Made by a program: the position numbers and the translations under genes. A DNA stretch of 63,719 nucleotides, taken from IMG/VR virus record IMGVR_UViG_3300027969_000100, positions 1 through 63,719 of that record. The stretch is one strand, 5' to 3'. Positions 32,709 through 58,800 of the stretch are shown in pieces (the stretch's first letter is position 1; each line of letters opens with the position of its first letter). The notes beneath the pieces are model-generated. The model was not told the origin of the DNA. It did no database searches and saw nothing but the letters and a program-made list of their open reading frames with translations. This DNA comes from a virus.

Positions 32709-34074
32709 ATGTATTCTTAAAGTGATTAACTGTGTAGTCCTTCTTCTTTATCACAGCCTTGTACACGTCATGCTCAATGCCTCCCTTACTGAAGACCCAG
32801 TACACATGGTTGAACGAACGATCTTTTGTTGTCATCCTATCCCTGCTCTGCCAGTAGCTCGTAGCACTGAAGTCAATGTTGTAGTACACCAAGTACTTGG
32901 CATGCCTAAGACTGATCCCCTCCCTGCCACTAACTATCTGGAGTGCAATGCTCTTGTCCGTGCTCTCAAATATACTAAGATCAGTTGTTAGTTCATCATT
33001 AAACACTGACTGTAAGGCAGATAACTCTTCCTTAAATTTATAGAAGATGCCTATCTTACTTCCTTGAAATTTTTGTTTAATGAACTCAGCCTTGCTGGTG
33101 TCCAGCACCATGCTGTTGCCACTCTCAAACTTAATCGTCCCACTGCATAGCTGGTGTACCTTCATCATCAACTTCACTGCCGTGTCAGCCAGTATCACCT
33201 CAGTCTTACCCTCAATCACCAAGTCTTTCTTTAGTCTCTTGATAAGCTGCATGGTAGACTCCTTCATCTCCACCTCTAAGATCTCCTCAGTAACTGATGA
33301 CACGAACCCTGCCTCCTTCTGTGAGAAGTTTATCATGTGTGGCTTCATCTTCTCAATGATGCTGTCCAACCCATCGCTGTAGTCATTGATGAATAGACCG
33401 TTGATGTTCTTCTGCTTTACCTTGACATACTTGTCGCAAAATTTGTAGAAGTTTACGAACTCTCGGAAGGGATTGTTAGGTATCGCATACACCTGATGGT
33501 ACATCTGTGAGTAACTCTCAGGTGTTGGTGTACCAGACATGAGTATCACCTTAGGCTTATACTTAGAGATGGCGTGTCGCATCATTACAGCCCGATTGCT
33601 GGGCTTTGGGAACGCACCTATACTATGTGCCTCATCAATGACTATTAGGTCAAATTTGAAGCTATCTACCACGTTGTGGAGGCTCTCATAGTTGATCACC
33701 TTTATATGGTAGCTAGGCTTAAGCAAATCGTAGTCCTTCTCGATGCTGCCGATGGCCTTCTTCTTGGTCACGAACAGCACTGACTTAGCTCCGCACTGAC
33801 TTGCTATGCCTAGGCTAGTCAAGGTCTTGCCTGTACGAACCTCCATAGCTAGGTACACGAAGCCATGTGTCTCAATGGCTCGTGCTCCCTGCGATATTAT
33901 ATCCCTCTGGTATGGTCTAAACTGCATGCTATATGTCCCGTAATAAGATAGACTGTTCTTTATTTTAGTTACTACATCTGGATCAACGAACTTACTCTTT
34001 GATACTACATCGTAAAGTGTACCGCAGTATCGTAGCATCTGCTCATCCGAGTACCCAGGTACCCTATCAATCAT
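32707..34074 (-). CDS. SNF2/SF2-type DNA helicase
   Basis: A 455-residue helicase. Motif Q/I is RPYQRD (53-58) with Walker A RTGKT at 80-84, motif II is DEAH at 147-150, motif III is SGTPTP near 180, and the C-terminal RecA lobe has SGREGISLRHA and the arginine-finger motif QSRDRM. This is the layout of compact phage SNF2-like helicases that remodel DNA or aid replication and recombination. It overlaps the primase-helicase gene by eight bases. Confidence 0.88.
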   Translation of the reverse strand: MIDRVPGYSDEQMLRYCGTLYDVVSKSKFVDPDVVTKIKNSLSYYGTYSMQFRPYQRDIISQGARAIETHGFVYLAMEVRTGKTLTSLGIASQCGAKSVLFVTKKKAIGSIEKDYDLLKPSYHIKVINYESLHNVVDSFKFDLIVIDEAHSIGAFPKPSNRAVMMRHAISKYKPKVILMSGTPTPESYSQMYHQVYAIPNNPFREFVNFYKFCDKYVKVKQKNINGLFINDYSDGLDSIIEKMKPHMINFSQKEAGFVSSVTEEILEVEMKESTMQLIKRLKKDLVIEGKTEVILADTAVKLMMKVHQLCSGTIKFESGNSMVLDTSKAEFIKQKFQGSKIGIFYKFKEELSALQSVFNDELTTDLSIFESTDKSIALQIVSGREGISLRHAKYLVYYNIDFSATSYWQSRDRMTTKDRSFNHVYWVFSKGGIEHDVYKAVIKKKDYTVNHFKNT

Positions 34075-36457
34075 TCGAATGAATTATTATCCACCTGCCC
34101 ATCATGTCACGCCCCTCCTCAGGTGCAACGCCATACTTGAATAGGCCATATGCAACCAACCACTTGTAGAACTTGGTCCTGCTGATGGTCATCTTAGACT
34201 TTGGTCCGTAGTCAGGGTACTCGTTCACGAAGTCATTGTACAAATCGTTCTTGTATAGCCTCACCTCTACCTCAAGCGTGTTGTTCTTAGGCTGACCCTC
34301 CACCAGACCACACCACTCGATGAAGTCATGAGAGGTCTCAGCAGATAGCTGTCTAATCTTTAGGTTCACAAAATTACTCTTCACTATCCCTGTATGCAGG
34401 TAGTTGGATAGGCAACCAATCATGTAGTTGTCAAACTCACACCAGTCATCATCGTTCCAGTCCCCGAACATCAGCTTACCAAACTCATCCAAGGGAGTGA
34501 ATGACTTGGAGTAGTACTGGTGTAGCTCCAGCTCAGACTTACGTCTAGCAAAGCTGTTGCCCGATCCCTTGATGGCATAGTTAGTAGTGATGGCAATCTT
34601 TGGTGACTTACTGAATGGTATCTTAATTGCATCCTTGTTCTTCTTCTCTAGCGTGAGACCCTCGGTCACCACGCTAAACAAACGCTCAAATTCAAAGTAC
34701 TTCTTCACATCATCGAACACTAGGATTTGTGTATCAGCAGACACAAGTTGGTAGGCGAAGCTACGCTCGAATGTGAATGACTTGCCATCAATCGTTACCA
34801 CCTTCTTCATCTTTGCTAGTGCGTTCATGAACAGACCCTTGCCTGTGCCACCCTCAGGGTTGTCGCTAATCACCTCATCGTTAAGGATTACTGCCGGACA
34901 GAAGCTTAGGTTCTTGTAGCCATGCATCAGGAACCCTATGTTACTCTCCATCGCCTGTACCCTACCATCATCACCCCCACAGATGTTTCGTATGAACTTC
35001 TTGTAGCTGCATGCATCTGTCACATCGCACATGATGAAGTTGCGGTCAATCACGTGATCGTTCCACACGTATCCACCCAAGTCAAGGTAGTCAATAGCCT
35101 TCACCCCAGTCTTGCTAACCTGCACAGCACAGTTCTTGTAGTACAGGTAAGAGGTGTCCTTGGTATCCTCAATGAATAAGATGTCTATGGTTGATAGCAT
35201 GGACAGGAACTCCTCCTTGAAGAACCTAGTGTTGTCAGCGAAGTAGTTGTATACCCCAATGTCATCCAGCTCTTGCAGATGGGTCAGCACGTAGTCCTTC
35301 ATCTCCTTCTCAGAGGTGTGGTCAATCAGGTTATCGGTGACCTTGACAAACACGTAATTCTTACCACCCTCAGGGCAGAACTTATAGAACCCGTGATCCT
35401 CAAGGAACTGCTTGAATAGAATGTGTACTATTCGAATGACTCCCTTCTCGCTCTTTTCCCAGAATGTTTTCTTTGCGTTCTCCTCCTCCACCTTGGTCAA
35501 GACTGCTTCAATAGTATCCGTATCCAGTTGAGAGTCCTGTAGCTGAATACGTATTTCTTTTTTTGATACACCCCTTCTTAGCTTGGCCTTGATGGAGTTT
35601 ACCTGCTCCTCATCCTCGTAGTACTTGGTGCCAAAGTTGGCCGTGTGCCGATAGGCTGAGTCAATTGCCGCACCTATCTCACTTACAGGGAAGTCCTCAG
35701 TAGCGTACTGGCTCAGCATACGTGATGCAAGACTCTTGTTTATTCCGAAGTCATTGAACGCCATCGCTAGGATGTACACGTTATGGTTACGCTGTCCCTC
35801 AACCATTGGGTACTTCTTCATCCACCACTTCACCAAGATGTCAACCACCTTGTTCTCATCAGTGATGGGTATGGTTAGCTTGTCCTTGATCTTACTCACC
35901 TCCGTGTACTCAAGATCCTCTATGGTGTTCCAGACAGATGAATTCTCGTTCACATAAATCAATGCATCATATGACTCGTAGCATACACGTGATATGTTCT
36001 TACTAGTCTTGTCAAAGTAGGGGCTATTGAAGTGCTTCTCTAGGCTGTTGAAGTAGTTGATGTGGTTGTCTTGGTCTGCTGGTATCTTTACCAGTACCTT
36101 TAGGCCATTGCCAGAGGGAGAGATGAATACGGAGTACACATACTTGTTCTTGGACAGCCTCTCCTTGTCATCGGTTAAGTCCTTAGTCTTTTGGTAGCCA
36201 TCAAAGTCTAGGCAAATCAAACCTGAGTGCTGAATAAGAGATGCATCTGTTCTCTTGTTGAATATACCGCTGAAGCATATGGCAGGCAGTAACTTCTTCA
36301 AGTCATTCCTCTCCTGCTTATTCTTCTCTGCTCTGATTCTTTTTACCAGATCTTTTGATGACCCCGATCTAATTCTTTCAAGGATTAAACCCACATTCCT
36401 GTGGAATGGAGTATCCGTGTCCTTGATGCTTGAGAATATCGTTACTTGATATGTCAT
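34067..36457 (-). CDS. Primase-helicase (VirE_N/BT4734-type primase with SF3-like ATPase)
   Basis: The 796-residue protein begins with a VirE_N/BT4734-like primase-related region (GLICLDFDG near residues 79-87 and ISPSGNGLKVLVK near 112-124). A PriCT-like helical segment (RNHNVYILAMAFNDFGINKS) follows. The helicase part has Walker A GGTGKG near 536, Walker B ILVFDD near 578 and a TTNYAI sensor. The C-terminus looks like a winged helix. It would prime and unwind at the phage origin. No DNA polymerase is present in the window, so the host enzyme is probably recruited. Confidence 0.85.
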   Translation of the reverse strand: MTYQVTIFSSIKDTDTPFHRNVGLILERIRSGSSKDLVKRIRAEKNKQERNDLKKLLPAICFSGIFNKRTDASLIQHSGLICLDFDGYQKTKDLTDDKERLSKNKYVYSVFISPSGNGLKVLVKIPADQDNHINYFNSLEKHFNSPYFDKTSKNISRVCYESYDALIYVNENSSVWNTIEDLEYTEVSKIKDKLTIPITDENKVVDILVKWWMKKYPMVEGQRNHNVYILAMAFNDFGINKSLASRMLSQYATEDFPVSEIGAAIDSAYRHTANFGTKYYEDEEQVNSIKAKLRRGVSKKEIRIQLQDSQLDTDTIEAVLTKVEEENAKKTFWEKSEKGVIRIVHILFKQFLEDHGFYKFCPEGGKNYVFVKVTDNLIDHTSEKEMKDYVLTHLQELDDIGVYNYFADNTRFFKEEFLSMLSTIDILFIEDTKDTSYLYYKNCAVQVSKTGVKAIDYLDLGGYVWNDHVIDRNFIMCDVTDACSYKKFIRNICGGDDGRVQAMESNIGFLMHGYKNLSFCPAVILNDEVISDNPEGGTGKGLFMNALAKMKKVVTIDGKSFTFERSFAYQLVSADTQILVFDDVKKYFEFERLFSVVTEGLTLEKKNKDAIKIPFSKSPKIAITTNYAIKGSGNSFARRKSELELHQYYSKSFTPLDEFGKLMFGDWNDDDWCEFDNYMIGCLSNYLHTGIVKSNFVNLKIRQLSAETSHDFIEWCGLVEGQPKNNTLEVEVRLYKNDLYNDFVNEYPDYGPKSKMTISRTKFYKWLVAYGLFKYGVAPEEGRDMMGRWIIIHSND

Positions 36458-36490
36458 AAATGTATAATGAATGTCGTTTATTTGTCAGGT

Positions 36491-36595
36491 TAACTTACTG
36501 ATACTTAGATGTATGTCGATTATGTTAATTTAAACCCCGTTTACTAGTCAAAGAAACAATAAGTAAACAAGTAGTATATATATATATATAGGGAA
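36491..36595. promoter_or_regulatory. Duplicated two-part intergenic element, copy A
   Basis: TGTCGATTATGTTAATTT at 36514-36531 is followed 43 bases later by a (TA)8 run and GGGAA (36575-36595). Upstream lies TTAACTTACTGATAC. The same two parts with the same spacing recur at 46477-46582. The element sits in the gene-free 200 bp upstream of the minus-strand primase-helicase gene. It may be an operator or a replication site. Confidence 0.65.
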
Positions 36596-36625
36596 AAATA
36601 AAAACGACATAGTCTGGAGAAAAAA

Positions 36626-37114: not shown

Positions 37115-37846
37115 TTAAAGTGTTTCGTTTATAAAGTAATTGTCAATGTCATCTGTTGGATTCGGTCCGAAGTACCTGTAGTACACCTCCATCGCTCGCT
37201 CTACCTTGGCCTCGCCACCGCTTACGAACTCTTCGGATGGTCTGAACAGACCAAGCTGCTCAGATTCCTTGTCAATAACGTAAAAGTATAGCGGTTTTCC
37301 AAATAATTTCTGGTAAATGTAGCACTGAGAGTCGTAGTTGTAGCTTTTTGCAGACCATCTGAACTTGTTTATGTCTGATGTGGTCTTCAAATCTATAATC
37401 GAATCGGCAGTTACGATGTCAGCCTTCGCCTTCCATTGCAGTCCCTTGATATCACCAATGATTGGCTCCTCGTATAGGTTGCCCTCCCTGTAGATGTCAT
37501 TGTAGAACTGGAAGTTTGACTTCATCACACCAGCAAGTCGCACAATTTCCTCGTACTCCTTGGTCAACATGGCGAACCCAAGGTTGTTGTCAGCACAGAA
37601 GGTCTTGTACTCCTTTGTATTCCGTGTACTAACGTCCACCTGTGGCACGATTACAGCCTTCTCAGGCTCAAGAATTAGCTGATGGAATAGTCTACCCTCA
37701 TGGAAGTGTTTAGAATCTCCAGATGGCACTCTAAATAGCTTAGGATTGGTAAGCAATGCATAGATGTCTGAGTTGGATAGGTAGTACTTACCCTTCCCAT
37801 TGTAATACTCATCATCATTCCTTAGTTCTTCAATAATTTGATTCAT
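37115..37846 (-). CDS. PD-(D/E)XK exonuclease (RecE/Cas4-like)
   Basis: The 243-residue protein shows a nuclease core with GLQWKAKADIVTADSIIDLKT (about residues 134-154), where the Asp of KAD and the D-L-K of IDLKT match the catalytic PD-(D/E)XK residues. A C-terminal helix with YNYDSQCYIYQKL resembles the Q-x3-Y motif of RecE and Cas4 exonucleases. It would resect DNA ends. With the annealing protein at 38611-39231 it makes a RecET-like recombination pair, with a methyltransferase gene between them. Confidence 0.75.
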   Translation of the reverse strand: MNQIIEELRNDDEYYNGKGKYYLSNSDIYALLTNPKLFRVPSGDSKHFHEGRLFHQLILEPEKAVIVPQVDVSTRNTKEYKTFCADNNLGFAMLTKEYEEIVRLAGVMKSNFQFYNDIYREGNLYEEPIIGDIKGLQWKAKADIVTADSIIDLKTTSDINKFRWSAKSYNYDSQCYIYQKLFGKPLYFYVIDKESEQLGLFRPSEEFVSGGEAKVERAMEVYYRYFGPNPTDDIDNYFINETL

Positions 37847-38627
37847 ATTGTTCGATTGATTTAAATATTTGATACACTACCTGGGGTACTATGGCATTTC
37901 CTCCTGCCATTATTGATTCTTTTCTCCATTTAGGAAAGGTAATAGAGTCCAGTCTACCGGAAAGCCCATCATCTCCATGACAAAGTGAGGGGACAGATGG
38001 CTGCATTTTGAAGTCTGTTCTATGTAGTTTATTGCGTCCTTTAAATTGTTGTTCATTGGATTGTGTCCTTTTCTTGGAGCATTGCCTCTCCTTCCTGCCT
38101 TCATGTCCATAGCGCAAGGAGTAGGAAGCATTAAATGCAATAAACCAAATTCTCTGCCTGACATGGGAAGCATTAACGCTTGCAGCTGGAAGTAAAAACG
38201 GTGTGACTTCGTAGCCTTCAGCTTCCAAATCAGATTGCACTTCGTCGAATACCAACCCTCCATTCCAATTAACAAGCCCACGAACATTCTCGCCCACGAT
38301 GTAGGTCGGCTGAATTTCTCGAATTGCTCGACACATTTCTGGCCAGAGGTGGCGGTCATCATCCTTGCCGAGTCGCTTTCCTGCTGATGAGTAGGGCTGA
38401 CATGGGAATCCCCCTGTGATGATGTCAATTTCTCCTCTGTAAATAGAGAAGTCTGTCTTGGTGATGTCATTGTGTGATATTGAATTAGGCCAATAATATT
38501 TTAAGACTCTCTGTCCGAATGGATTCCATTCGCAATGGAACACGTTATCCCATCCCATCCAATCGGAGGCCAAATCAAAGCCCCCGATTCCACTGAATAA
38601 TGATCCGTGCCTAAGCATTAAACTCAT
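37830..38627 (-). CDS. dcm: DNA cytosine-5 methyltransferase
   Basis: A 265-residue C5 methyltransferase: motif I LFSGIGGFDLA (10-20), motif IV GFPCQPYS with the catalytic Cys (73-80), motif VI GENVRG (112-117), motif VIII-like HVRQRIWF and motif X GNAIVPQV near the end. The target-recognition region is short for the family. It would methylate phage DNA against host restriction. It overlaps both neighbours by 17 bases. A 186-codon second frame (37910-38470) lies wholly inside it and looks genuine. Confidence 0.9.
   Translation of the reverse strand: MSLMLRHGSLFSGIGGFDLASDWMGWDNVFHCEWNPFGQRVLKYYWPNSISHNDITKTDFSIYRGEIDIITGGFPCQPYSSAGKRLGKDDDRHLWPEMCRAIREIQPTYIVGENVRGLVNWNGGLVFDEVQSDLEAEGYEVTPFLLPAASVNASHVRQRIWFIAFNASYSLRYGHEGRKERQCSKKRTQSNEQQFKGRNKLHRTDFKMQPSVPSLCHGDDGLSGRLDSITFPKWRKESIMAGGNAIVPQVVYQIFKSIEQYESNY
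37910..38470 (-). CDS. Nested overlapping reading frame inside the methyltransferase gene (186 aa)
   Basis: The frame starts at ATG 38470 within codon 53 of the methyltransferase and stops before that gene ends. The product starts MTSPRQTSLFTEEKL and has WYSTKCNLIWKLKATKS, LMLPTPCAMDMK and a C-terminal LSPHFVMEMMGFPVDWT. I remember such proteins, with the same start and ending, from many Bacteroidota phages and metagenomes, again overlapping a methyltransferase. That makes a chance frame unlikely. The DWT-type C-terminus resembles a methyltransferase-associated module, perhaps a specificity partner. Whether it is translated is unknown. Confidence 0.55.
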   Translation of the reverse strand: MTSPRQTSLFTEEKLTSSQGDSHVSPTHQQESDSARMMTATSGQKCVEQFEKFSRPTSWARMFVGLLIGMEGWYSTKCNLIWKLKATKSHRFYFQLQALMLPMSGREFGLLHLMLPTPCAMDMKAGRRGNAPRKGHNPMNNNLKDAINYIEQTSKCSHLSPHFVMEMMGFPVDWTLLPFLNGEKNQ

Positions 38628-39231
38628 CAGCTATTTCTTTCTTCAGTGTTACAGATATGTCATACTGGGTGGTCAACTGCTTGCCAATGAATGCAAGACC
38701 CTTACTCTTGTTGTCCTTTACATACTTTAGAACCTTAATCCAATCATCGCTTCCTTTCACTAATGTAACCAGTGCCTTAGGCAAGCTCTGCTCCACTGCC
38801 TTTGGCTCACTCTCTGGTAAATCCTCACCGGCATAGATGTAAATCCCCAATCCAAACATCGCTAGGTTCTTAACCAAGCAACGCATCAAGGTCTTGTTGA
38901 TGTCAAACGTAGTCGCTGCATCCACCTGCTTGTCTCCGTACTTGGTAGCATAGGAGTACGCCTTCTTCTTCATGCTCTTGTTCTTCCCATCCATGACAGG
39001 CAACCACATCTCTAGGGTCTGACCCTCGATAGTCACCTCGCTATGGCACATGAATCCAAGGTCATCATCGTACTCCGTAGGTAGGATCTTATACGATGCA
39101 TCTGGGCACTCCTTCTTAGTCACAGACCATGCCCAGGCCCAGGATAGGTAGGTTAGGTTGTCCTTCTTCTCAACATGTTCGTTCACATTGATGGCTGATA
39201 GCCTGTCGAATACTGATTTTTCTGATTTCAT
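38611..39231 (-). CDS. Single-strand annealing protein (DUF1071/ERF-like)
   Basis: The 206-residue protein has the DUF1071 signature: YLSWAWAWSVTKKECP (about 28-43), MWLPVMDGKNKSM near 74-86 and ATTFDINKTLMRCLVKNLAM near 105-124. This family belongs with phage annealing recombinases of the Rad52/ERF superfamily and pairs complementary single strands. With the PD-(D/E)XK exonuclease at 37115 it forms a plausible recombination system. It overlaps the upstream DnaA-like gene by four bases. Confidence 0.8.
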   Translation of the reverse strand: MKSEKSVFDRLSAINVNEHVEKKDNLTYLSWAWAWSVTKKECPDASYKILPTEYDDDLGFMCHSEVTIEGQTLEMWLPVMDGKNKSMKKKAYSYATKYGDKQVDAATTFDINKTLMRCLVKNLAMFGLGIYIYAGEDLPESEPKAVEQSLPKALVTLVKGSDDWIKVLKYVKDNKSKGLAFIGKQLTTQYDISVTLKKEIADEFNA

Positions 39232-39518
39232 TTCTCTAGATTTTTAATTAGTTGTTTGTAGTCTGTGTCTGCCTGTACTTTACTCTCGATTGATTTGATC
39301 CCGTGGATAATGGATGAGTGACCTATCACGTACCCATTCATGTCCATGTACCTCTGGATGTAGCTGACAGGTATCTTACGATTGGAACACAGGTAGTAGA
39401 GCATGTGTCTTGCATCTACCACCTCCATCTTTTTATTCTTTGAGAATATCCAGTCCCTAGGGATGGAGTAACGCTTGATGATGTTGTCTAAATAGTTATT
39501 AAAGATTTCAACTTTCAT
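39228..39518 (-). CDS. DnaA domain IV-like DNA-binding protein
   Basis: The 96-residue protein is close to a bare DnaA C-terminal domain: VDARHMLYYLCSNRKIPVSY (34-53) followed by the signature helix VIGHSSIIHGIKSIES (64-79), matching the DnaA pattern DHTTV.HA. AAA+ ATPase and oligomerisation domains are absent. It may bind DnaA-box-like repeats at the gene-free region near 45.9 kb, either to recruit host DnaA or to compete with it. Confidence 0.75.
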   Translation of the reverse strand: MKVEIFNNYLDNIIKRYSIPRDWIFSKNKKMEVVDARHMLYYLCSNRKIPVSYIQRYMDMNGYVIGHSSIIHGIKSIESKVQADTDYKQLIKNLEK

Positions 39519-40684: not shown

Positions 40685-40902
40685 AGTTGAATTGTTAAGG
40701 TGTCACTTAAATTTGATAAGACAATCTTACTAGGATATGCATCCTCCAATGCATGGATGTAGTCCTCGATAAAGTACTTCATCTCATCATGTTGATTCGC
40801 CATAGGCTCTGTCACCTTTCTGATTTGTTCCTCTTTTAGGTTGGTGTATAGTGTACACTGGTCACCATCCCATGTTCCTACTTTTAATTTGAATACATTC
40901 AT
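40681..40902 (-). CDS. Small protein, paralogue of the gene at 42160-42384
   Basis: The 73-residue protein shares a layout with the 74-residue product of 42160-42384: an N-terminal strand, then TNLKEEQIRKVTEPMAN versus TDLNEIQIKKVIEPIVN, and then an xALxDAYP motif. This suggests a local duplication. Function unknown. Confidence 0.55.
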   Translation of the reverse strand: MNVFKLKVGTWDGDQCTLYTNLKEEQIRKVTEPMANQHDEMKYFIEDYIHALEDAYPSKIVLSNLSDTLTIQL

Positions 40903-41507
40903 ATTGCGTGTGTGTTTAAAATTTCAAAACATAAATCGTGTGGAATCTTACTCCTCTCGTATGCATTCTTTAACCCCTGTGTACCGGTAACGCTACCTCT
41001 AGGTGCTGATACATGGCATGTGTTCCCATTGCTACACATCTTTCTTGTAATCCATACATTACTATTAGTCCAGATATCTGTAGGCTTCATCCTACTATCA
41101 CCATACTGGCAGTAGGTGACTGTCTTCCTATCAAACTCCTCCATGATAGGCATCTTTCTCAGCATCCCCCTTGGGTTCTCAATAAAGAAATACTTAGGAT
41201 CAAAGTGCTTGATGATTTCAATTGTCTTCTCTACTAACTGAATACCAAACCTAGCACCATCAGTCTTGGGAGTCTTATCATGATTCCAATTCCTACCAAT
41301 GGATGCAACAGAAAATGCTGTGCATGGTGGTGATGCCCAAATAATATCTGGCTTGAAAGGGACTTTGTTTACATCAAAGTCTAGTATGCTCACCGCATAG
41401 TCAATCCCATCAAAGGGGACTAGGTAGGAGGAGTACACCTCCATACCTAATGCCTCTGCTACCTTGCCAATAGACCTACTACCAGCGAATAATTCTAGTA
41501 CCTTCAT
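40899..41507 (-). CDS. Second C5-type DNA methyltransferase
   Basis: I place the start at ATG 41507 (MKVLELFAGSRSIGK), one base after the upstream stop. The longer frame upstream only overlaps the previous gene. The 202-residue protein has motif I LELFAGSRSIG, motif IV ASPPCTAFSVAS with the catalytic Cys, and motif VI FIENPRGML. It is small and lacks an evident target-recognition domain or motif X. It may be a C5 enzyme with unusual specificity or an inactive relative. Together with 37830-38627 it gives the phage two methyltransferases. Confidence 0.8.
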   Translation of the reverse strand: MKVLELFAGSRSIGKVAEALGMEVYSSYLVPFDGIDYAVSILDFDVNKVPFKPDIIWASPPCTAFSVASIGRNWNHDKTPKTDGARFGIQLVEKTIEIIKHFDPKYFFIENPRGMLRKMPIMEEFDRKTVTYCQYGDSRMKPTDIWTNSNVWITRKMCSNGNTCHVSAPRGSVTGTQGLKNAYERSKIPHDLCFEILNTHAI

Positions 41508-41508
41508 C

Positions 41509-41751
41509 TTAGTTGTCTGATAGGTCTGTGAATTGGGTAAAGTTATCTGCAATTTGAAGCAGATGATTGGTTGCTAGTAGCAGTAGTATGTTGTAGTCTA
41601 CACACTTGTGCATCATCTCGCTTACTTTACTCACCTTATCCATGTCCCCACTAGATAGTAGGGTTAGGATCGTAGCCAATTGGGCAGCATACTTGTGTTG
41701 CTCCACTCCTAGTGACTCCACTAGGGAGTTTGCTTCGTGATTGAATTTCAT
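41509..41751 (-). CDS. Hypothetical protein, 80 aa
   Basis: I choose ATG 41751 (MKFNHEANSLVESLGVEQHK) because it forms the ATGA overlap seen throughout this block. Helical, with an LLLLATNHLLQIA stretch near the end. No known function. Confidence 0.55.
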   Translation of the reverse strand: MKFNHEANSLVESLGVEQHKYAAQLATILTLLSSGDMDKVSKVSEMMHKCVDYNILLLLATNHLLQIADNFTQFTDLSDN

Positions 41752-45404: not shown

Positions 45405-45659
45405 TTATGAATAAATAATCTTTTCAATATTAGTAACTTCTCTTTTGGGCAAGTAGTAACATGCATCCAAGTATTGGTCAAATACATTCTCACATTTTCT
45501 ATCCAATTGAATGCCTTTTTTCTCCTCATCATTGTCATATGCTCTGTCTCTCTCACTACTTAATGCATTGTACTTCTCAAGGTATTTTACTGCCTTGTTT
45601 ACCATCCTCTGATTTTTCTTTGTGATTGCTACTATCATTTCTCTTTTTGTTTTGGTCAT
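45405..45659 (-). CDS. Hypothetical basic helical protein, 84 aa
   Basis: The first gene of the minus-strand block, next to the candidate origin. It starts MTKTKREMIVAITKKNQRMV and is highly basic at the N-terminus, then acidic. It could bind nucleic acid. No family recognised. Confidence 0.5.
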   Translation of the reverse strand: MTKTKREMIVAITKKNQRMVNKAVKYLEKYNALSSERDRAYDNDEEKKGIQLDRKCENVFDQYLDACYYLPKREVTNIEKIIYS

Positions 45660-45889
45660 AGATATCCACCTCAGCCCTTATGGCTGTTTTTGGCGTTGTG
45701 CTTATTGCATGTACAAAGGATGTTCTTTTCTAGTTCATATCCTAATACTCGTTCAATTTATTTTCAATATTTATTAAACTTTTATGTAAGTGATTGATAA
45801 TCAGCGAGATTAATTTTGTTATTGGTGTTATATATTATTTATCCTTAGAATCTATGGGACTTGGGTAAAGCAAAGTATCCTCTTATCCC

Positions 45890-45911
45890 TTGTGGATATC
45901 TTGTGGATATC
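45890..45911 (+). repeat. Two tandem 11-bp DnaA-box-like repeats (TTGTGGATATC)
   Basis: The two copies are perfect and adjacent, giving one helical turn spacing. Each contains TGTGGATAT, one base away from the inverse DnaA box TGTGGATAA. A related TTATCCC precedes them at 45883. Confidence 0.7.
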
Positions 45912-45947
45912 TTTTGTTGACTACGAGTCAAGTTTATCTGGAAGAAA

Positions 45948-45971
45948 GGTAGCTAGGTAGGTAGCTAGGTA
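45948..45971 (+). repeat. Two tandem 12-bp repeats (GGTAGCTAGGTA)
   Basis: Two perfect adjacent copies, followed by the partial match GCAAGCTAGGGC. They lie 37 bases from the DnaA-box-like repeats and may be iterons for a phage initiator. Confidence 0.7.
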
Positions 45972-46166
45972 GGGATGCAAGCTAGGGCATAGGAGTTCGT
46001 ATATCCTAGGCACTACTACTTGCAGTGAGCAGATAGGAAAAGCCAAAAAATCCATGGCAAGCCGATTGACTGCCTACCCCCCATGCCGAAAAAAAAATCG
46101 TTTCCGCTTTGGGCCGGCTGTCGTAATTTGGTGGTATTACCCAAACAGTCCTATCATCTAAAGTAT

Positions 46167-46174
46167 TATATTTG
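46167..46174 (+). promoter_or_regulatory. Bacteroidota -7 promoter box TATATTTG
   Basis: It lies 21 bases before ATG 46196 at the right edge of the gene-free region and would drive the small gene there. Because the box overlaps the TTG at 46172, that upstream start cannot be used. Confidence 0.65.
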
Positions 46175-46195
46175 TGCATGATTGATGGACTAACA

Positions 46196-46375
46196 ATGAA
46201 GAACGGTCGTTTGATAAATGATCGTCCTAACAGCGTAACAGGAATTCAAAAGGCTATCGATATTAAGAGAACCTTGAAGAAAGCAGAGAAGCTTGAGATG
46301 TATTCTGAAGCTGTGTCACTAGGTATTCAGAGAGCAGGCAATGACGATAACATCAGAGGGATGTTCTTGAAGTAG
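46196..46375 (+). CDS. Small basic protein next to the origin region, 59 aa
   Basis: I choose ATG 46196 (MKNGRLINDRPNSVTGIQKA) as the first start safely downstream of the promoter box; ATG 46178 would leave almost no leader. The product is basic and helical and could bind DNA. It is a single-gene unit between a promoter and a terminator on the divergent side of the origin region, a common place for early regulators. No family recognised. Confidence 0.5.
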   Translation: MKNGRLINDRPNSVTGIQKAIDIKRTLKKAEKLEMYSEAVSLGIQRAGNDDNIRGMFLK

Positions 46376-46395
46376 TAGCTTTTTGAGTTTATTTG

Positions 46396-46425
46396 AGAGA
46401 GGGATTTTATGGTCCCTCTTTTTTT
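46396..46425 (+). terminator. Intrinsic terminator
   Basis: AGAGGGA (46398-46404) pairs with TCCCTCT (46413-46419) around TTTTATGG and is followed by seven T. It closes the single-gene unit. Confidence 0.8.
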
Positions 46426-46476
46426 GTACCCAACATTCCAGATAAACTGTCATGGACTGTACGAAATTATGTCGTG

Positions 46477-46582
46477 TAACTAACTGATATCTAGAGTCCT
46501 GTCGATTATGTTAATTTTTAAAATGAATTGTAGTGAGAAAAATATAAAAGAGAGAGATTAATATATATATATATATAGGGAA
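46477..46582. promoter_or_regulatory. Duplicated two-part intergenic element, copy B
   Basis: TAACTAACTGATAT leads into TGTCGATTATGTTAATTT at 46500-46517, and about 43 bases later a (TA)8 run followed by GGGAA ends at 46582. The distance from TGTCG to GGG is 78 bases here and 77 in copy A (36491-36595). The two copies have the same orientation although their surroundings differ. Confidence 0.65.
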
Positions 46583-46621
46583 GAAGAAGTTTGTCATTCA
46601 ATTCGATATTCCATTTTTCAT

Positions 46622-46629
46622 TATCTTTG
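46622..46629 (+). promoter_or_regulatory. Bacteroidota -7 promoter box TATCTTTG
   Basis: Fits TAnnTTTG and lies 26 bases before ATG 46656, with an A-rich leader (aaacaaacaaaaaa) between. Confidence 0.6.
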
Positions 46630-46655
46630 TCTGAACAAACTAAACAAACAAAAAA

Positions 46656-46946
46656 ATGGAGAAGTTTTTAAGTATCCCAGTAACGAACGAGCAGAGACAA
46701 TTGGTTTCTGCTACAGGTATTGTGTTGATTGAGCAAGAGTCAACAACAGCTGTACATATTCACTACAAGTCAAGCACAGGAACTGATGTTGTGACAATTA
46801 CCCATGCGGCAGCTCCAGCAGGTAGCGAAGTTATGCGTGATGCTATTCAAGACGCTGTTGTCAGAGCATTGGGTACATCATGGACGTATGTAGCATTTGA
46901 GGTTCAAAACCTACCGTTTGCTGTATCAGGTATTACAATTGCTTAA
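46656..46946 (+). CDS. Conserved Bacteroidota phage protein, 96 aa
   Basis: The beta-rich protein starts MEKFLSIPVTNEQRQLVSAT, a start I remember from short proteins of Bacteroidota phages. It has its own promoter box, A-rich leader and strong terminator, which suggests an abundant product, perhaps a head decoration or another structural protein. No catalytic motif is visible. Confidence 0.6.
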   Translation: MEKFLSIPVTNEQRQLVSATGIVLIEQESTTAVHIHYKSSTGTDVVTITHAAAPAGSEVMRDAIQDAVVRALGTSWTYVAFEVQNLPFAVSGITIA

Positions 46947-47035: not shown

Positions 47036-48637
47036 ATGGAACCTAAAGATTTATTTTTAGCCCAGGAGGGCAGACTAAAGTTAATTTCTGGCATCAAGAA
47101 GATTGCCGGAGCGGTCAAGAGTACGTTGGGGCCATATGGCAACACGGTACTAATTGAGAGTCCTAATCACACGCATGGTATTACTGTAACTAAAGATGGG
47201 GTGACTGTCGCTAAGGCTGTTGACCTACTTGACCCTGTGGAGAACCTTGCGGTTAAGATGATGAAGGAGGCGGCTGATAGAACGGCTACTGCTGCTGGTG
47301 ATGGCACTACTACTGCCATAGTGTTGACAGAGGGGTTGGTACTTGGATGGTTGGAGCATATTGGCACTGAGCAGTTAAATAATACTGAGGTGCTACGCAA
47401 CATATCTGAGCTGAGCACTAAGGTGATTGAGGGGTTGAAGAAGAAGAGTAAGAAGGTCACTAACTCAATGCTGCTTGACGTGGCAACTATCTCTGCGAAC
47501 AATGACAGTCACATAGGTCGAATCATTGCTGATGTGTACAAGGAGGTGGGGAAGAATGGCATAGTAACGGTGGAGCGAAGCCAGACTGCTGACACATATG
47601 CTGAGACCACTAGGGGGTTAAAGATTGACAGGGGGTACACAAGCCCACTGTTCATCAACGATCAGAGTAGGGACGAGTGCGTATTTGAGGATGTACTGGT
47701 GCTGGTGGCTGACATTGAGATAAGTAATGTCTTGCAGATTGAGAACGTGTTGAAGCCAATCATACAGGAGGGGAAGAAGCTACTGATCGTATCTCCATGC
47801 CACGTGAACGTGGTGAATACCTTGGCGGCAAACGTGATGAAGAGTAACCTAAAGATGTGCGTGGTTCAACCACCGAGCTTCGGGTACCGACAGCATGAGC
47901 TGATGCAGGACCTGGCGGTGAGTGTTGGGGCCACATACTTCAGTGAGAAGACCGGGGATGACCTGAGTCAGATCACTATTGCTGACCTAGGGCATGCAGC
48001 CAGAGTGGTGGTTGGCAAGGACAAGACCATAATCCTCAAGTCAGACCTCAAGCTCGACACTGCAAAGGTCGAGGAGCGAGTGGCACAGCTATGGCAGGCA
48101 CATAAGATTGCTAAGAAGAAGGTTGACAAGGACCACCTGTTGGAGCGAATCGCCTCCCTTACGGGAGGGATAGGTGTGATATACGTAGGTGGGCAGACTG
48201 ACCTAGAGCAGAAGGAGCTGTACGACCGTGTTGACGATGCGGTGTGTGCGGTACGATCCGCTCTGGAGGAGGGCATACTACCAGGTGCAGGCAAGGCACT
48301 GCTTGACGAGAGTGCTGTGATCAGAAGAGACCTATTATTTAACTTAAGCAAGGAGTACAATGCTGCTGTTGAGATACTATCCAATGCGATGATGGCACCA
48401 TTCCAGCAGATCCTAGCTAACGCTGGCCTCAAGCCAAGTGACGTATACAAGGAGGCGATGCCTGTTGGGCACGGGTACAACCTAAAGACGGGGCAGATGG
48501 GTGACCTAGTACAGATGGGTGTGATTGACCCACTAAAGGTGACACGCAGTGCGTTACAGAACGCTGTGAGTGTAGCGACAACTATATTGAGTACTAACGC
48601 CATCATAACTATGGCACGATCATACGAGACTAGATAA
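47036..48637 (+). CDS. groEL: Chaperonin GroEL
   Basis: A near-full-length GroEL of 533 residues. Equatorial-domain ATP site: STLGPYGN at 29-36, TKDGVTVAKA at 52-61 and GDGTTT at 88-93. The catalytic Asp pair lies in RVDDAVCAVRSALEEGI (D400/D401) and GAG follows. The apical domain is present. The GGM-rich C-terminal tail of bacterial GroEL is missing. Key ATPase residues are kept, so it should fold proteins in a ring, perhaps phage virion proteins. A phage GroES gene lies 2.7 kb downstream rather than adjacent. The divergence from bacterial GroEL (for example SPNHTHGITV) argues against recent host contamination. Confidence 0.95.
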   Translation: MEPKDLFLAQEGRLKLISGIKKIAGAVKSTLGPYGNTVLIESPNHTHGITVTKDGVTVAKAVDLLDPVENLAVKMMKEAADRTATAAGDGTTTAIVLTEGLVLGWLEHIGTEQLNNTEVLRNISELSTKVIEGLKKKSKKVTNSMLLDVATISANNDSHIGRIIADVYKEVGKNGIVTVERSQTADTYAETTRGLKIDRGYTSPLFINDQSRDECVFEDVLVLVADIEISNVLQIENVLKPIIQEGKKLLIVSPCHVNVVNTLAANVMKSNLKMCVVQPPSFGYRQHELMQDLAVSVGATYFSEKTGDDLSQITIADLGHAARVVVGKDKTIILKSDLKLDTAKVEERVAQLWQAHKIAKKKVDKDHLLERIASLTGGIGVIYVGGQTDLEQKELYDRVDDAVCAVRSALEEGILPGAGKALLDESAVIRRDLLFNLSKEYNAAVEILSNAMMAPFQQILANAGLKPSDVYKEAMPVGHGYNLKTGQMGDLVQMGVIDPLKVTRSALQNAVSVATTILSTNAIITMARSYETR

Positions 48638-49218: not shown

Positions 49219-49490
49219 GTGAGATATCATTCATTGTGGTTTACATTATGCGTAAATGTAGTAGATATACTACTATATTACGGCACTCTTTGCCATAAGC
49301 TGCCAAATGTCGACAAAATGGAGACATTTGGAGACTAATGTTGTCGATTTTTGGGACGAATATTTGTAAAATTGTGACAACCAATTCGGATAATTTCCGA
49401 ATTGTACAATAAAAAATGACCCAAGAGCAGATCCTACGGTATGCTACTTGGGTACTTATAGGTTTACATATTGGGAACTTTTGTTAACCT
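49219..49490. other. Intergenic region with three inverted repeats
   Basis: CCAAATGTC/GACATTTGG (49303-49331, 11-base spacer), CAATTCGG/CCGAATTG (49382-49404, 7-base loop) and ACCCAAG/CTTGGGT (49419-49453) occur within 150 bases. The motif TGTCGA appears at 49308 and 49344 and is shared with the duplicated elements at 36.5 and 46.5 kb. The region lies between a plus gene and a converging minus gene, so termination, regulation or an untranslated RNA are all possible. Confidence 0.5.
49416..49487 (+). CDS. Possible 23-aa hydrophobic peptide
   Basis: ATG 49416 after an A-run gives MTQEQILRYATWVLIGLHIG and ends NFC. One membrane-like helix. It coincides with an inverted repeat and is too short to be sure. 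Confidence 0.25.
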   Translation: MTQEQILRYATWVLIGLHIGNFC

Positions 49491-51212: not shown

Positions 51213-51317
51213 ATGGCACTAAACGAAAGGGATTATCGGAACTTCATAGATGGGCTTCTGATAGGGGTTGTATTCGGTGTAGTTGTTTCTAGTATTTTGT
51301 TTCTGGTCTTTACATAA
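51213..51317 (+). CDS. Single-helix membrane protein, 34 aa
   Basis: ATG 51213 opens MALNERDYRNFIDGLLIGVV and continues as a membrane helix to TAA at 51317. It lies just upstream of the groES promoter. Support is the start context and fit in the gap. Confidence 0.45.
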   Translation: MALNERDYRNFIDGLLIGVVFGVVVSSILFLVFT

Positions 51318-51318
51318 C

Positions 51319-51326
51319 TATATTTG
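51319..51326 (+). promoter_or_regulatory. Bacteroidota -7 box TATATTTG directly before groES
   Basis: Only four bases separate the box from the groES ATG at 51331, so the transcript would start at or within a few bases of the ATG and be almost leaderless. Confidence 0.6.
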
Positions 51327-51330
51327 TAGT

Positions 51331-51588
51331 ATGAAAGCTATAGGAAAAAATATTGTAATCAAATCAATTGACGAGGAAGTAAAGACTTCTTCAGGATTAG
51401 TCCTATCTGGTGAGGACACCAACCAATTACGCTACAAGCGTGGAGTAGTAATCAACTCAGGGACAGAGGTAAGTTCAATCAAGCCAGGAGACAACGTGTA
51501 CTACGACAAGGCGAACAGCTATGTGATGATCATCAATGATGAGCACTGCGTAATTATTCAGGAACGTGACGTAGTTCTTGTCCTGTGA
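51331..51588 (+). CDS. groES: Co-chaperonin GroES
   Basis: The 85-residue protein follows the GroES pattern: AIGKNIVIKSIDEE, then a mobile loop with KTSSGLVLSGEDTNQLRYKR (residues about 18-37, holding the GroEL-contacting GLVL), RGVVINSG, IKPGDNVYYDKANSY and a final VIIQERDVVLVL. It is about 12 residues shorter than bacterial GroES, mainly in the roof region. I choose ATG 51331; the frame upstream runs through the promoter. It should cap the phage or host GroEL. Its end overlaps the converging regulator gene by 35 bases. Confidence 0.88.
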   Translation: MKAIGKNIVIKSIDEEVKTSSGLVLSGEDTNQLRYKRGVVINSGTEVSSIKPGDNVYYDKANSYVMIINDEHCVIIQERDVVLVL

Positions 51589-52030
51589 GTCTATTCTCCT
51601 TTAGTTCCTGATTCATAGTAATAATCATGTTCCTGTAGACTTTGTCCGAGAACCTTACGTTCTTCTTGAACATTGGGTTGTTGCACATTGTCTCAGGAAT
51701 CTCTTCCCCCTCTAACTTTTTGTAGATTGAGTTAATCATTCTCTTTGCTTTATAGGATAGTGAGTACAATGCCTTAGATCTCATGGCAGGTCTGCCCTTC
51801 TGTCTGCTAGAAAACAATTCAATCCATCCTTCTTTTATTAATCTGTAGAACCTTTCCCTGTTCCAGCTAAATATTTTTTCGTATTCTTTGAAGGTGGTGA
51901 TATTGAAGTACCGTTCTGAGTAGAGGTACAGCAGCATGTCTAGATCTGCTTGACTTAGATTGTGCCTTACCTTGAAGTATTCACGGATTACTTTCCAGAA
52001 TTTAAGGTAGTCTCTTTTATTTGATTTCAT
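51554..52030 (-). CDS. Winged-helix transcription regulator candidate
   Basis: Start ATG 52030 (MKSNKRDYLKFWKVIREYFK). The 158-residue protein has a MarR-like winged-helix pattern (LSQADLDMLLYLYSERYF, then FSWNRERFYRLIKEGWIELF and a basic wing RQKGRPAMRSKALY). Similar proteins recur in crAss-like and related phages as I remember. It is transcribed away from the small-basic-protein operon from overlapping divergent promoters, so it may regulate that operon and itself. Confidence 0.65.
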   Translation of the reverse strand: MKSNKRDYLKFWKVIREYFKVRHNLSQADLDMLLYLYSERYFNITTFKEYEKIFSWNRERFYRLIKEGWIELFSSRQKGRPAMRSKALYSLSYKAKRMINSIYKKLEGEEIPETMCNNPMFKKNVRFSDKVYRNMIITMNQELKENRLTGQELRHVPE

Positions 52031-52039
52031 TTTTATTAT

Positions 52040-52059
52040 TACATTTGTAAACAAAGGTA
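52040..52059. promoter_or_regulatory. Two divergent -7 boxes (TACATTTG plus, TACCTTTG minus)
   Basis: TACATTTG at 52040-52047 faces the plus-strand small-protein genes, and the complement of CAAAGGTA at 52052-52059 (TACCTTTG) faces the regulator gene. The polymerases would compete for the same 20 bases, which makes this a natural switch. Confidence 0.55.
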
Positions 52060-52080
52060 CCACATTTAAACAACAAGAAC

Positions 52081-54434: not shown

Positions 54435-54655
54435 AAAAATTATTTGATTGGTTAAAAGGCTTCTTGTCTGAAAATGGAGAAGCATCTTCTAAAAGATTTG
54501 TTGGAGTATTTGCTGCAATAGCTTTGTGCTATACGCTTTATGCCAACCATGATTCGGCTAACGAACCATCAGAAGCTTTAGTTTATTCGGTTGCTGCTTT
54601 ATCTGCTGCTGCTTTAGGTATTACGGCAGCTGAGAAGATATTCAAGAAGGAATGA
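54431..54655 (+). CDS. Holin candidate, 74 aa
   Basis: Two hydrophobic segments (RFVGVFAAIALCYTLYA, 22-38, and ALVYSVAALSAAALGITAA, 49-67), a charged C-terminus and a small size fit a holin. It precedes the PAS protein and the M15 peptidase. Its stop overlaps the next start (ATGA). Confidence 0.65.
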   Translation: MKKLFDWLKGFLSENGEASSKRFVGVFAAIALCYTLYANHDSANEPSEALVYSVAALSAAALGITAAEKIFKKE

Positions 54656-55404
54656 AGAACTTAAGCAAGGAGGAACTACTAAGTCGAATGGAGGCAATTA
54701 ATCGTAGCAATGCGATTATTTACTTTGACTTAAATGGTTTTATCCTTGGAGTAAACGCTATCTTCTTAGAGGCTATGGGCTTTGCTGAAGATGAGCATGA
54801 TAAGCTGATTGGAAAGCACCATTCGATTTTTGTCAGCTACGAATATTCTAAGTCTGAAGACTATACAAAATTCTGGGAAATGCTTCGGGCTGGAAAATTT
54901 TACGAAGGTGAATTTGAAAGAAGAAAGATAGATGGTAGACCTATTTATTTGCAGGCTACATACAATCCTATCTTTGACGAAAGCGGTACTATCACTAAGA
55001 TAATGAAGATAGCTACCGACATTAGCCAAACTATTGTAAGTAAAAATAAGATTGGCGAACTATCTAAAAGTTTGCAGGCTGAGTTAGAAAACTCAAATAA
55101 GTTAAGGGCAGCAATTGAGATTGAAAAGGATGCAGCTGTTAATGACTTAGATGCTACCATTAAGAAAAGTCAAAACGAGCTCATTAAAGTAATTGTAAAG
55201 TCTGCCTTGTTCGTAATTATGAGTGTTGGATTTATTACAACGATAATGTACTCGTTTGCTATTCTATCGGATAAGGATACGCAAATCATTGGATCTACTT
55301 GGTCAAATATGTTTTCGGTTTTATTGACGAATGCCTTCTCTATTGTCGGCACAATCATGGGAATTAAGTACGCAACTTCAGAAGATAAAAAAAATAAGGA
55401 ATGA
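54652..55404 (+). CDS. PAS-domain membrane protein in the lysis cassette
   Basis: Residues about 10-130 form a PAS domain of the chemoreceptor type: AIIYFDLNGFILGVNAIFLE, GKHHSIFVSYEYSKSEDYTK, FWEMLRAGKFYEGEFERR and NPIFDESGTITKIMKIATDI. Residues 135-175 are a coiled coil. Two membrane helices follow (178-204 and 219-240), with a short charged tail. No kinase, methyl-accepting or other output domain exists. It lies between the holin candidate and the peptidase with four-base overlaps on both sides, so it may tune lysis. Which signal or cofactor it binds is unknown. Confidence 0.8.
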   Translation: MKNLSKEELLSRMEAINRSNAIIYFDLNGFILGVNAIFLEAMGFAEDEHDKLIGKHHSIFVSYEYSKSEDYTKFWEMLRAGKFYEGEFERRKIDGRPIYLQATYNPIFDESGTITKIMKIATDISQTIVSKNKIGELSKSLQAELENSNKLRAAIEIEKDAAVNDLDATIKKSQNELIKVIVKSALFVIMSVGFITTIMYSFAILSDKDTQIIGSTWSNMFSVLLTNAFSIVGTIMGIKYATSEDKKNKE

Positions 55405-55889: not shown

Positions 55890-58800
55890 ATGGCAAAGAT
55901 AAGTACATACCCCATTCTTTCTACCCCTACCCTCAATGACCTGCTCATAGGTACAGATGTAGAAAACCTAAATATCACCAAAAACTTTTCTATTGGAGAT
56001 ATCGCCAGCTTTATTGTTGGCGGTAGTTATGTTCCATACGTTGGTGCAACTGGCAACGTAAACTTAGGGGCTTTTAATATCACCTCCTCTTCATTTATTG
56101 TTGGTGGAGGATTAGCCACTCAGTTTTTAAAGGCTAATGGTACGCTTGACTCAACAGTCTATCAGCCTGCTGGCAACTATATCACTCAGCTTTCAGGAGA
56201 GGCAACTGCTTCAGGGCCAGGTAATGCAACTGTTACACTTAGCAATTCCGCTGTAATAAATAAAGTATTAACAGGTCTTACTATTACAGGTAATGCAATT
56301 GTTGCAACTGACAGCATACTTACTGCATTTGGTAAAGTACAAAATCAAATCAATACGCTTGTTGGCGGTGTTCAGTACAAAGGTACGTGGAACGCAGCGA
56401 CTAATGTACCAGCTTTAGTAAGCTCTGTAGGTATTTCAGGTAACTATTATGTAGTAAGTGTAGCAGGCAATACAAATCTTAATGGGATTACCGATTGGAA
56501 TCTTGGTGATTGGGCCATCTTTAACGGTTCAGCTTGGGAGAAGGTTGATAATACTGATGCGGTCATAAGTGTCAATGGTCAGGTTGGGGCTGTTGTGCTT
56601 ACAACAACTAATATTAGTGAGGGCACTAATCTGTACTTTACTAATTCACGTGCTAGGACTGCAATAAATTTAACAACCACTGGTAACAGTGGAGCAGCTA
56701 CGTATAACAACACAAATGGGTTCTTTAATATCCCTGAGTATACTTTATCAGGTCTTGGCGGAGTTCCTTTAACAAGACAGCTAACTATTAATGGTACAGC
56801 ATTTGACTTATCAGCAAATAGAAGTTGGAGTGTGGGTACAGTTACGTCAATTGCCACAACTGGACCGCTTACAGGGGGTACAATTACTGGTTCTGGCACA
56901 ATTGGAATTACGCAGGCAGGAGCAAGCTCAGATGGATACTTGTCTAGTACTGACTGGAATACATTCAACAATAAGCAGAACGCATTAACTAATCCTATAA
57001 CAGGGACTGGTACGATTTTTACTTTGCCCATGTGGGGTGGTGCTACATCTTTGATCGATAGCCCACTATCCTATGGCTCAAATAACTTTAATTTTCAATA
57101 TAATAGCGCAACCGGTGGTACGGTAACTTTTACGAATAGTGGATTGACTGCTTACGCATACACTATACAGATGAACAACTTCGGTTCTCCGAGGTCAACT
57201 GTTCATAGCTATACTGATGGGGTTGTCATTCAATCTATAGCCGGCACTCAGGTATCTAGACTATTTGCTAATGGAAACTTGATTCTAGGAACAGGGACTG
57301 CTGACAATGGACACAAGCTTGAGATAATTGGGAGCCTGTATGTAAATACAATTACCAATGCAACCGTTGATACTGACAGATTTATTGTAAGTGATGGAGG
57401 GGTTATTAAGTATAGGACAGGCACTGAATTACGCTCAGATATTGGCGCAGGCATAGGTTCTGTTACAAGTGTAGGACTTAGTATGCCTTCAGCATTTAGT
57501 GTCGCTAACAGTCCTATAACAGGCGCAGGAACTATTGCTGTAACAGGCGCAGGTAGTGCCTCTCAGTATGTTAGAGGAGATGGCACATTGGCTGACTTTC
57601 CTACAAATACAGGAGGAGGCTCATCAGTTAGTTACTACCTAAACGGATCTGTTAGTCAGGGGACTATTGGTGGTGTTGCTTACAGAGAGCTAAGCAAGAT
57701 TCCTATTTTTGGAGCAGGCACAGATATAAGTATTGCTGCTGATGGGTACATTGCTTCTTTTATTACTGATGCTGGTGACCCTGCGTTGCTTAATATCCCA
57801 GCTGGAAACTGGAACTTTGAAACTTATTTTAGTGCTTCAAGTGGTGGAGGCACCCCTTCATTTTATGTGGAGCTGTACAGATATGATGGAGCTATATTTA
57901 CTCTTATTGCATCAAGCGTTGGTACTCCTGAGTTAATTTCTTTTGGAACAAATATACAGCCATACTTTTCTACTCTTGCTGTTCCTCAAACTGCTTTAGC
58001 ATTAACAGATAGACTTGCTATTCGATACTATGTTATTCATGATGGCCGTACAATTACTCTTCATACAGAAGATAATCACTTGTGTCAAGTTGTTACTACG
58101 TTCTCTAATGGATTAACGGCATTGAATGGATTGACCGCACAGGTTCAATACTTTCAGGTAGGTACTTCAGGAACGGACTTTGCTATCTCAAGTGCAACTA
58201 ATATTCATACCTTCAATATCCCTACTGCTTCAGCTACAAATCGAGGGGCTTTGAGTAGTGCTGATTGGACAACTTTTAACAATAAACAGAATGCTTTAAC
58301 AAACCCAATCACGGGCACAGGTGTATCAGGACAAGTAGCTTATTGGAATGGGACTAATTCGCAAACGGGAAGCAATAACCTATTTTGGGATAATACAAAT
58401 ATAAAACTTGGAATAGGTACAAACACACCTGAAGGAACAGGTTTGACAGTTGCAGGTGGAGGGGTTTTAATTAGCCTTGATTCGGGTGCTGCTAGAAAAG
58501 TATTAGAACTTTATGCTACAAGTACGGGGGCAAAAGTATCTTCTACTTATGTCGGTGCTTCATCTTATGGTAGTTTAGAATTATTAACTTCAAATGTGCC
58601 AAGGCTTACAATAGCGGACACGGGCGGTGTAACTTTGACAGGTGCTTTGAACGGGACTAGTGCTAGTTTTAGTGGATTGCTAACTGCAATCCCAACAGCA
58701 ACAACTTTGGTAAGAGCAGCTACTTTTGGCAATACTTCAACAAATGCTTTATCTGCTGCATCTATTGGTTTTAATTTAGGTGGTGGTGATTTTGGTGCAA

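Follow-up and report, generated by a model that had tools for sequence, protein, structure and literature searches.

Replication origins are, to our knowledge, unknown for almost all environmental phages. Where does DNA replication start in the present phage, and which protein is likely to start it? The window, i.e. the whole stretch of DNA analysed here, is a phage record of 63,719 bases with terminase, portal, GroEL and GroES genes. Its nearest named relative is the uncultured Podoviridae sp. ctfjg026 (MW202828, circular, 60,850 bp), which has a largely common gene set and a primase 76% identical. More distant named relatives are the Flavobacterium Elemovirus phages. These have GroEL, GroES, portal, terminase and the N-terminal half of the primase in common with the window, whereas the helicase half is unmatched and a separate gene is annotated as replication initiation protein.

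The phage combines one GroEL (47036-48637) with two GroES-like proteins (1659-2222 and 51283-51588), and a PAS-domain protein with, by eye, apparent membrane segments is encoded at 54652-55404. Bases 1-50 are repeated at 59741, within a large tail-fibre-like ORF (55890-60404), as a partial second copy of the ORF end.

The divergent intergenic region

A candidate origin with tandem DnaA-box-like repeats had been proposed in a preliminary description for a gene-free divergent region at 45660-46166. The region is indeed free of ORFs of 60 or more amino acids between 45659 (- strand) and 46172 (+ strand), and its described sequence features are all present:

45890-45900 and 45901-45911, + strand: two perfect copies of the 11-bp tandem repeat TTGTGGATATC
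45947-45970, + strand: two copies of the 12-bp tandem repeat AGGTAGCTAGGT
near 45742: A/T-rich stretch, the 7th least stable 60-bp window in 63.7 kb
45787-45799, - strand: IHF-type site, within the conserved block on the left side of the region

At 45660-45669 there is a third copy, inverted and only half present (GTGGATATCT). The window has four perfect tandems with a period of 10-13 (45889, 45947, 10660, 24991). In 100 order-1 Markov simulations their mean number is 0.12, so that both tandems of the region exceed chance. A search for structured RNA in 45660-46171 gave no Rfam match at gathering score, and only weak ones of E 0.08 and 0.36.

The detrended cumulative GC-skew minimum likewise falls inside the region, at 45785 (43505 in MW202828), and not elsewhere as a mislocated origin would predict. 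It is weak evidence, since it coincides with the switch of the gene strand. Coding-strand skew is positive across all codon positions in all five gene groups, with third-position values from +0.26 to -0.03. As a means of choosing between 45.8 and 46.5 kb GC skew fails, the minimum being at the strand switch and the third-position values mixed.

Two scans of viral contigs yielded 110 loci, some of which share a contig. An alignment of the intergenic region of the window with ten of these loci reveals a hypervariable, low-complexity tract at about 45885-46040, flanked by conserved blocks. Conservation of the tandem was counted in the 13 contigs in which both flanking blocks were found (the region of L056 is cut, and L034 is the contig of L015). 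TGTGGATATC occurs twice in only three of them, namely the window, L003 and L013, and the others carry different low-complexity sequence; the 11-bp tandem is therefore not a functional part common to the lineage. The 12-bp tandem is replaced by other short-word sequence in most relatives. The tract borders a leftward stretch that cannot be aligned between relatives, and its counterpart in L035/L036 is GC-rich with many short palindromes. A palindrome, TTGACTACGAGTCAA, lies at 45917-45931; TTGAC-N(3-5)-RGTCAA matches in 8 of the 13 orthologous contigs, and the palindrome may be an operator.

Could the TTGTGGATATC tandem nevertheless be an origin of the oriC type, bound by host DnaA or by the DnaA-domain-IV proteins of the phage? 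Its copies stand 11 bp apart and read ATATCCACA, a single mismatch from the DnaA box, and the skew minimum, the IHF-type site at 45787-45799 and AT-rich DNA accompany them. An exact DnaA box (TTATNCACA) is, however, absent from 45660-46166, and exact sites in the whole window are confined to 16616, 17468 and 49850. With no exact box in the cluster, a tandem kept in 3/13 orthologous regions, a skew minimum that is that of the strand switch and a far better conserved element 0.3 kb away, a DnaA-box origin is very unlikely, and the tandem was rejected in this role for its poor conservation. The preliminary description thus had the right, origin-like neighbourhood and the wrong element.

A paired repeat element

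When positions 45600-46700 are searched against the record itself, a second sequence is found at 36491-36601, 71% identical over 111 bp to a segment 0.3 kb to the right of the region above. A profile built from 29 copies (nhmmer) detects this element of about 130 bp exactly twice in the window, both times on the + strand and 10 kb apart. The two copies are called A and B:

46448-46597, + strand: element A, a candidate origin flanked by the p67 gene and p96/groEL (nhmmer 46469-46597, 87.7 bits)
46500-46513, + strand: core repeat pair of A, TGTCGATTATGTTA, with further direct repeats at 46448 and 46469
46477-46489, - strand: IHF-type site of A
46515-46580: AT-rich stretch of A, candidate unwinding element, ending in (TA)n GGG
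36451-36610, + strand: element B, candidate origin (nhmmer 36487-36610, 80.6 bits)
36513-36526, + strand: core repeat pair of B, ATGTCGATTATGTT, with further direct repeats at 36451, 36471 and 36483
36491-36503, - strand: IHF-type site of B
36527-36595: AT-rich stretch of B, ending in (TA)n GGGAA
36605-36610, - strand: far-end inverted repeat of B, CGACAT

Relatives show the same order of parts, i.e. direct repeats ATGTCGATTTT, an IHF-type site TAACTnnYTGATW, the core repeat pair ATGTCGATWATGTCGATTTT, AT-rich DNA of some 60-70 bp with TA, CTA or TAG runs, and CGACAT inverted repeats. TGTCR is present on average 3.7-3.8 times per copy (34 genomes), and YGACA is found in the far half of 23/34 A copies and 24/34 B copies. 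Many relatives have more repeats, and less degenerate ones, than the window itself; the counterpart of the inverted repeat in element A (46590-46597), for example, reads TTTGTCAT and is degenerate. TAACTnnYTGATW is the reverse of WATCARNNNNTTR, which we take to be the IHF consensus. The motif occurs in 27/34 A and 27/34 B copies as against 0.9% of random 85-bp windows, and in the aligned copies the positions fixed by the consensus are invariant and the open positions variable.

A possible third copy at 49.3 kb (ATGTCGACA ... TTGTCGATTTTT) was discarded, as its repeat set is not conserved in relatives. Positions 49303-49331 form a hairpin, the middle segment of which is flipped, with the opposite orientation in L005/L058 and L007/L057.

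Repeat geometry and duplex stability

Distances between neighbouring TGTCR repeats follow the helical repeat of DNA. The best period of 188 spacings from 34 genomes is 10.4 bp (R 0.84; 0.83 with 26 representatives). When the analysis is confined to the 83 long spacings, R is 0.85 at 10.5 bp; the jittered null reaches at most 0.33. The IHF-type site starts 23-24 bp before the core in 27 cases and 34 bp before it in four; for the inverted repeat, the distance from the core start is 87-93 bp in 26 of 31 cases and 98-107 bp in the other five. The geometry is that expected of a protein array along one face of the DNA, as judged from the spacings.

Computed nearest-neighbour energies place the least stable distinct 60-bp window of the entire record in element A (start 46517) and the third least stable in element B (start 36544). 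In-phase direct repeats and an adjoining AT-rich stretch of low computed stability, both hallmarks of iteron-type origins, are accordingly found in the elements; a primase-helicase gene adjoins element B, and its product would be the presumptive initiator.

Distribution and gene context

A 19-bp DNA pattern taken from the core, free of any gene information, recovered at least 120 stretches in viral contigs. The element profile was found in 115 of these, with 118 matches. Among the matches listed, 57 of the 118 lie 5-58 bp before the start of a primase-helicase match, and for another 57 a groEL match starts 53-664 bp further on. All 114 placed elements among the matches listed share the orientation seen in the window (four are unplaced). 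The two adjoining genes of the window are

34067-36457, - strand: primase-helicase (Pfam PF08800 and PF19263; structure model and fold matches)
47036-48637, + strand: phage GroEL (phrog_5725, PF00118), preceded by element A in relatives

Element B is oriented opposite to the primase-helicase gene and overlaps its start codon. Also MW202828 possesses two elements adjoining its primase and groEL genes; unlike the proposal made here, the annotation of that record has no origin at either of them. A 96-aa protein without Pfam match is encoded at 46656-46946, and a relative of it is encoded in 325 viral stretches.

In a set of 47 records (15 picked for a DnaA-like protein, 13 for a 96-aa protein, 17 for the pattern and two named), covariance-model matches to the element number two or more in 35, one in eight and none in four; the sampling favours element carriers, so that these counts are not frequencies. 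The two best matches are on the same strand in 33 of the 35 records, the exceptions being G021 and G041, the latter with a reversed and reduced B match. The helicase half of the primase is present in 43 of the 47 records, 41 with an element and two (G017, G024) without. Among the four records lacking this half, a 36-kb fragment (G026) has an element, two have no match and the Elemovirus record W02 has a weak one (E 0.0076) inside its groES gene. Elemovirus is thus without a credible element, just as it is without the helicase half. TGTCG occurs 2.33 times per 260 bp on the element strand ahead of 67 primase genes, the background being 0.23; 7 of the 67 have none.

The pattern occurs at 48 places in 257 Gb of genomes, which by a rough estimate is mostly near chance. 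Only L249/L254 and L280 among them scored well, and the idea of prophage or chromosomal copies was rejected. L249/L254 (JAAGZR010000166.1) is a short contig binned as Aliivibrio with both elements, adjoining groEL and primase-helicase, and is likely a misbinned phage contig. Searches of the open-access literature found nothing on these origins.

A cos or recombination site can likewise have direct copies, a conserved spacing and an IHF-type site, and the two copies of the present element share all three properties. They might hence serve packaging, partition or recombination instead of the start of replication. The terminase gene (2415-4709), however, is not near either element, 114 of the 118 matches among those listed adjoin primase-helicase or groEL, and a scan of the proteins from part of the ORFs showed no integrase. 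Of all the readings considered, this is the least probable, and by a wide measure improbable.

Regulation is the chief competitor, since both copies lie in operon leaders and regulation could explain them. Elements A and B would then be operators or promoter regions of a single phage regulator that turns on the primase-helicase and groEL operons jointly, with no function as origins. Each element immediately precedes an operon, and the position of repeats over a start codon fits autoregulation. Among the phage proteins there are also small candidates for DNA binding, viz. the product of 51554-52063 (phrog_17028, with a winged-helix look by eye) and the DnaA-IV-like proteins. A terminator-like hairpin upstream of element B points the same way, as a primase promoter is then expected in or near B. 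Against operators speaks the polarity of the element, which is opposite toward the two genes in 114/114 placed matches among those listed. Moreover, a separate TAnnTTTG box, presumably the -7 motif of Bacteroidota, follows the A core start by 83-202 bp in 26/34 genomes, so that A need not be a core promoter. The extreme instability computed for the AT-rich stretch of element A, the lowest stability anywhere in the window, the restriction of the element to only two places and its layout as such likewise count against operators. A start site for a phage-encoded RNA polymerase at (TA)nGGGAA was considered as well. Such a purely regulatory function is unlikely, though it deserves far more weight than packaging; origin and operator roles can also coexist in the same elements.

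Concerted change of the two copies

In several diverged genomes the repeat is altered as a set, e.g. to TGTTGA or TGTTAA in L028, L022, L019 and L032, and in L028 the inverted copies are altered too. TGTCGA is changed in both A and B of L028, L022 and G018. Across 26 representatives, the likeness of A and B at the repeat columns is 10.46 as opposed to 9.45 under permutation (sd 0.18, P 5e-5). The covariation extends beyond the repeats and includes the 20 bp directly after the core: control segments give P 4e-4 at 0-20 bp after the core, 0.02 at 20-40 bp and 0.49 at 40-60 bp, weakening with distance, and P 0.05 for the IHF segment. A wider core window, which picks wrong cores in a few genomes, results in control values of P 5e-5, 0.003 and 0.11, and a narrower one in a stronger repeat signal. 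From these alignments, the A and B copies within a genome change together, and this is clearest at the repeats. The simplest reason for such a pattern is a single trans-acting protein that reads both copies, and exchange between the copies may also be behind it.

The primase-helicase as candidate initiator

The structure model of the primase-helicase has a mean pLDDT of 71, with the helicase core (residues 555-647) under 50. In the model, the N-terminus (residues 1-183) is PrimPol-like (6zp9, Z 8.3), and the helicase part (residues 330-696) matches the SaPI5 Rep 7ola (Z 10.6, rmsd 4.5, 266 aligned) as well as ASFV PrimPol and poxvirus D5/E5. On this modelled fold the protein is a primase fused to an SF3/D5-type helicase. 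By sequence, no credible relative was found in a PDB search. The C-terminal 122 residues, modelled alone, form a predicted winged helix (pLDDT 81.5). Its fold matches are weak and many; 1ka8, the domain with which P4 binds its origin, is one of them (Z 5.1 with an rmsd of 3.3 over 73 aligned residues; E 1.2 in Foldseek) and ties with many other winged helices.

The alpha protein of satellite phage P4 is, as we understand it, a primase-helicase with a winged-helix origin-binding domain that acts at ori1 and crr. These two separated sites, which we take to carry the same repeats, resemble the present proposal; the match of the C-terminal domain to 1ka8 is weak at Z 5.1. The SaPI Rep helicases offer a second parallel. 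According to excerpts of one account, their C-terminal domain recognises iterons and they are described as self-loading (PMC7581432). Like them, the window protein joins a primase to a helicase, whose modelled fold matches 7ola (Z 10.6), yet the PDB search returned no sequence match to SaPI5 Rep. The layout differs too: the known SaPI origin is located downstream of rep in the same excerpts (PMC7581432), whereas the window has two elements, one of them overlapping the primase-helicase start.

The primase-helicase and two DnaA-domain-IV-like proteins had also been named in the preliminary description, as encoded by the block neighbouring the divergent region. All three are real, but they are encoded 6-15 kb away. 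The two DnaA-like proteins are

39228-39518, - strand: stand-alone DnaA-domain-IV-like protein, 96 aa (Pfam PF08299, PDB DnaA chains)
30949-31434, - strand: second, weaker DnaA-domain-IV-like protein, 161 aa (family-level PF08299 matches)

The first matches PF08299 with E 1e-6 and its best PDB DnaA chain with E 1.6e-6; at 29.2 bits the window member is under the PF08299 cut-off of 31.5 bits, and 28 of 28 members of its family match at E up to 0.1. For the second, 8 of 16 family members match PF08299 and the window member does not. Two records, G018 and G021, possess the primase-helicase and two element matches (the second of G021 weak) with no DnaA-like match, which weakens the case for a DnaA-IV protein as obligate partner of the elements.

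Proposed mode of replication

Taken on sequence patterns and structure models, elements A and B are probably two iteron-type origins, arranged like those of Bacillus phage SPP1, with the phage's own primase-helicase as their most likely initiator. The C-terminal winged helix of this protein would bind the in-phase TGTCGA repeats at A and B, and a host protein of the IHF/HU family would bend the DNA at the fixed site between the repeats. The AT-rich (TA)n stretch would then melt, and the SF3 helicase would load itself before priming. As element B is situated at the start codon, the primase-helicase may limit its own synthesis.

For the later steps SPP1 serves as an analogue. Excerpts of two accounts describe its origins oriL and oriR as about 12-13 kb apart and composed of direct repeats and an AT-rich unwinding element, with one origin within the initiator gene, and report that phage recombination proteins follow (PMC6316719, PMC3485210). 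In the window, the recombination genes are situated between elements A and B:

37115-37846, - strand: exonuclease VIII-like protein (phrog_412, E 1.6e-29)
38611-39231, - strand: Sak-type single-strand annealing protein (PF06378, E 7e-46)

Two DNA methyltransferase genes (37830-38627 and 40899-41552) lie in the same block. By analogy with SPP1, theta replication might begin at one copy of the element, and the other copy might be active late or act as a fork block, after which the annealing protein and the exonuclease of the phage could drive concatemer synthesis. The likeness is one of layout only, namely two similarly laid-out sites with repeats and AT-rich DNA, a paired arrangement that recurs in 35 of the 47 records, each having at least two element matches. 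The initiator of SPP1 is G38P, which works with a loader and a helicase of the DnaB type; in the window phage, in contrast, a fused primase-SF3 helicase adjoins, and the other copy precedes groEL.

A wider picture can be offered tentatively, and we regard it as possible rather than probable. A large and mostly uncultured lineage of Bacteroidota podophages might replicate from two matched origins, one tied to the initiator gene and one to groEL, by means of a self-loading PrimPol-SF3 helicase and an IHF-like bending protein of the host. The DnaA-domain-IV proteins might be side players in it, occupying host DnaA boxes or tuning the origin switch.

The sequence alone has led to a precise candidate pair of origins, common to many viral contigs, with a named candidate for the initiator and a constrained layout. 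If true, the proposal would provide a self-contained replicon for Bacteroidota phages, and it would add another case of the two-origin plan of SPP1, run by a different initiator.
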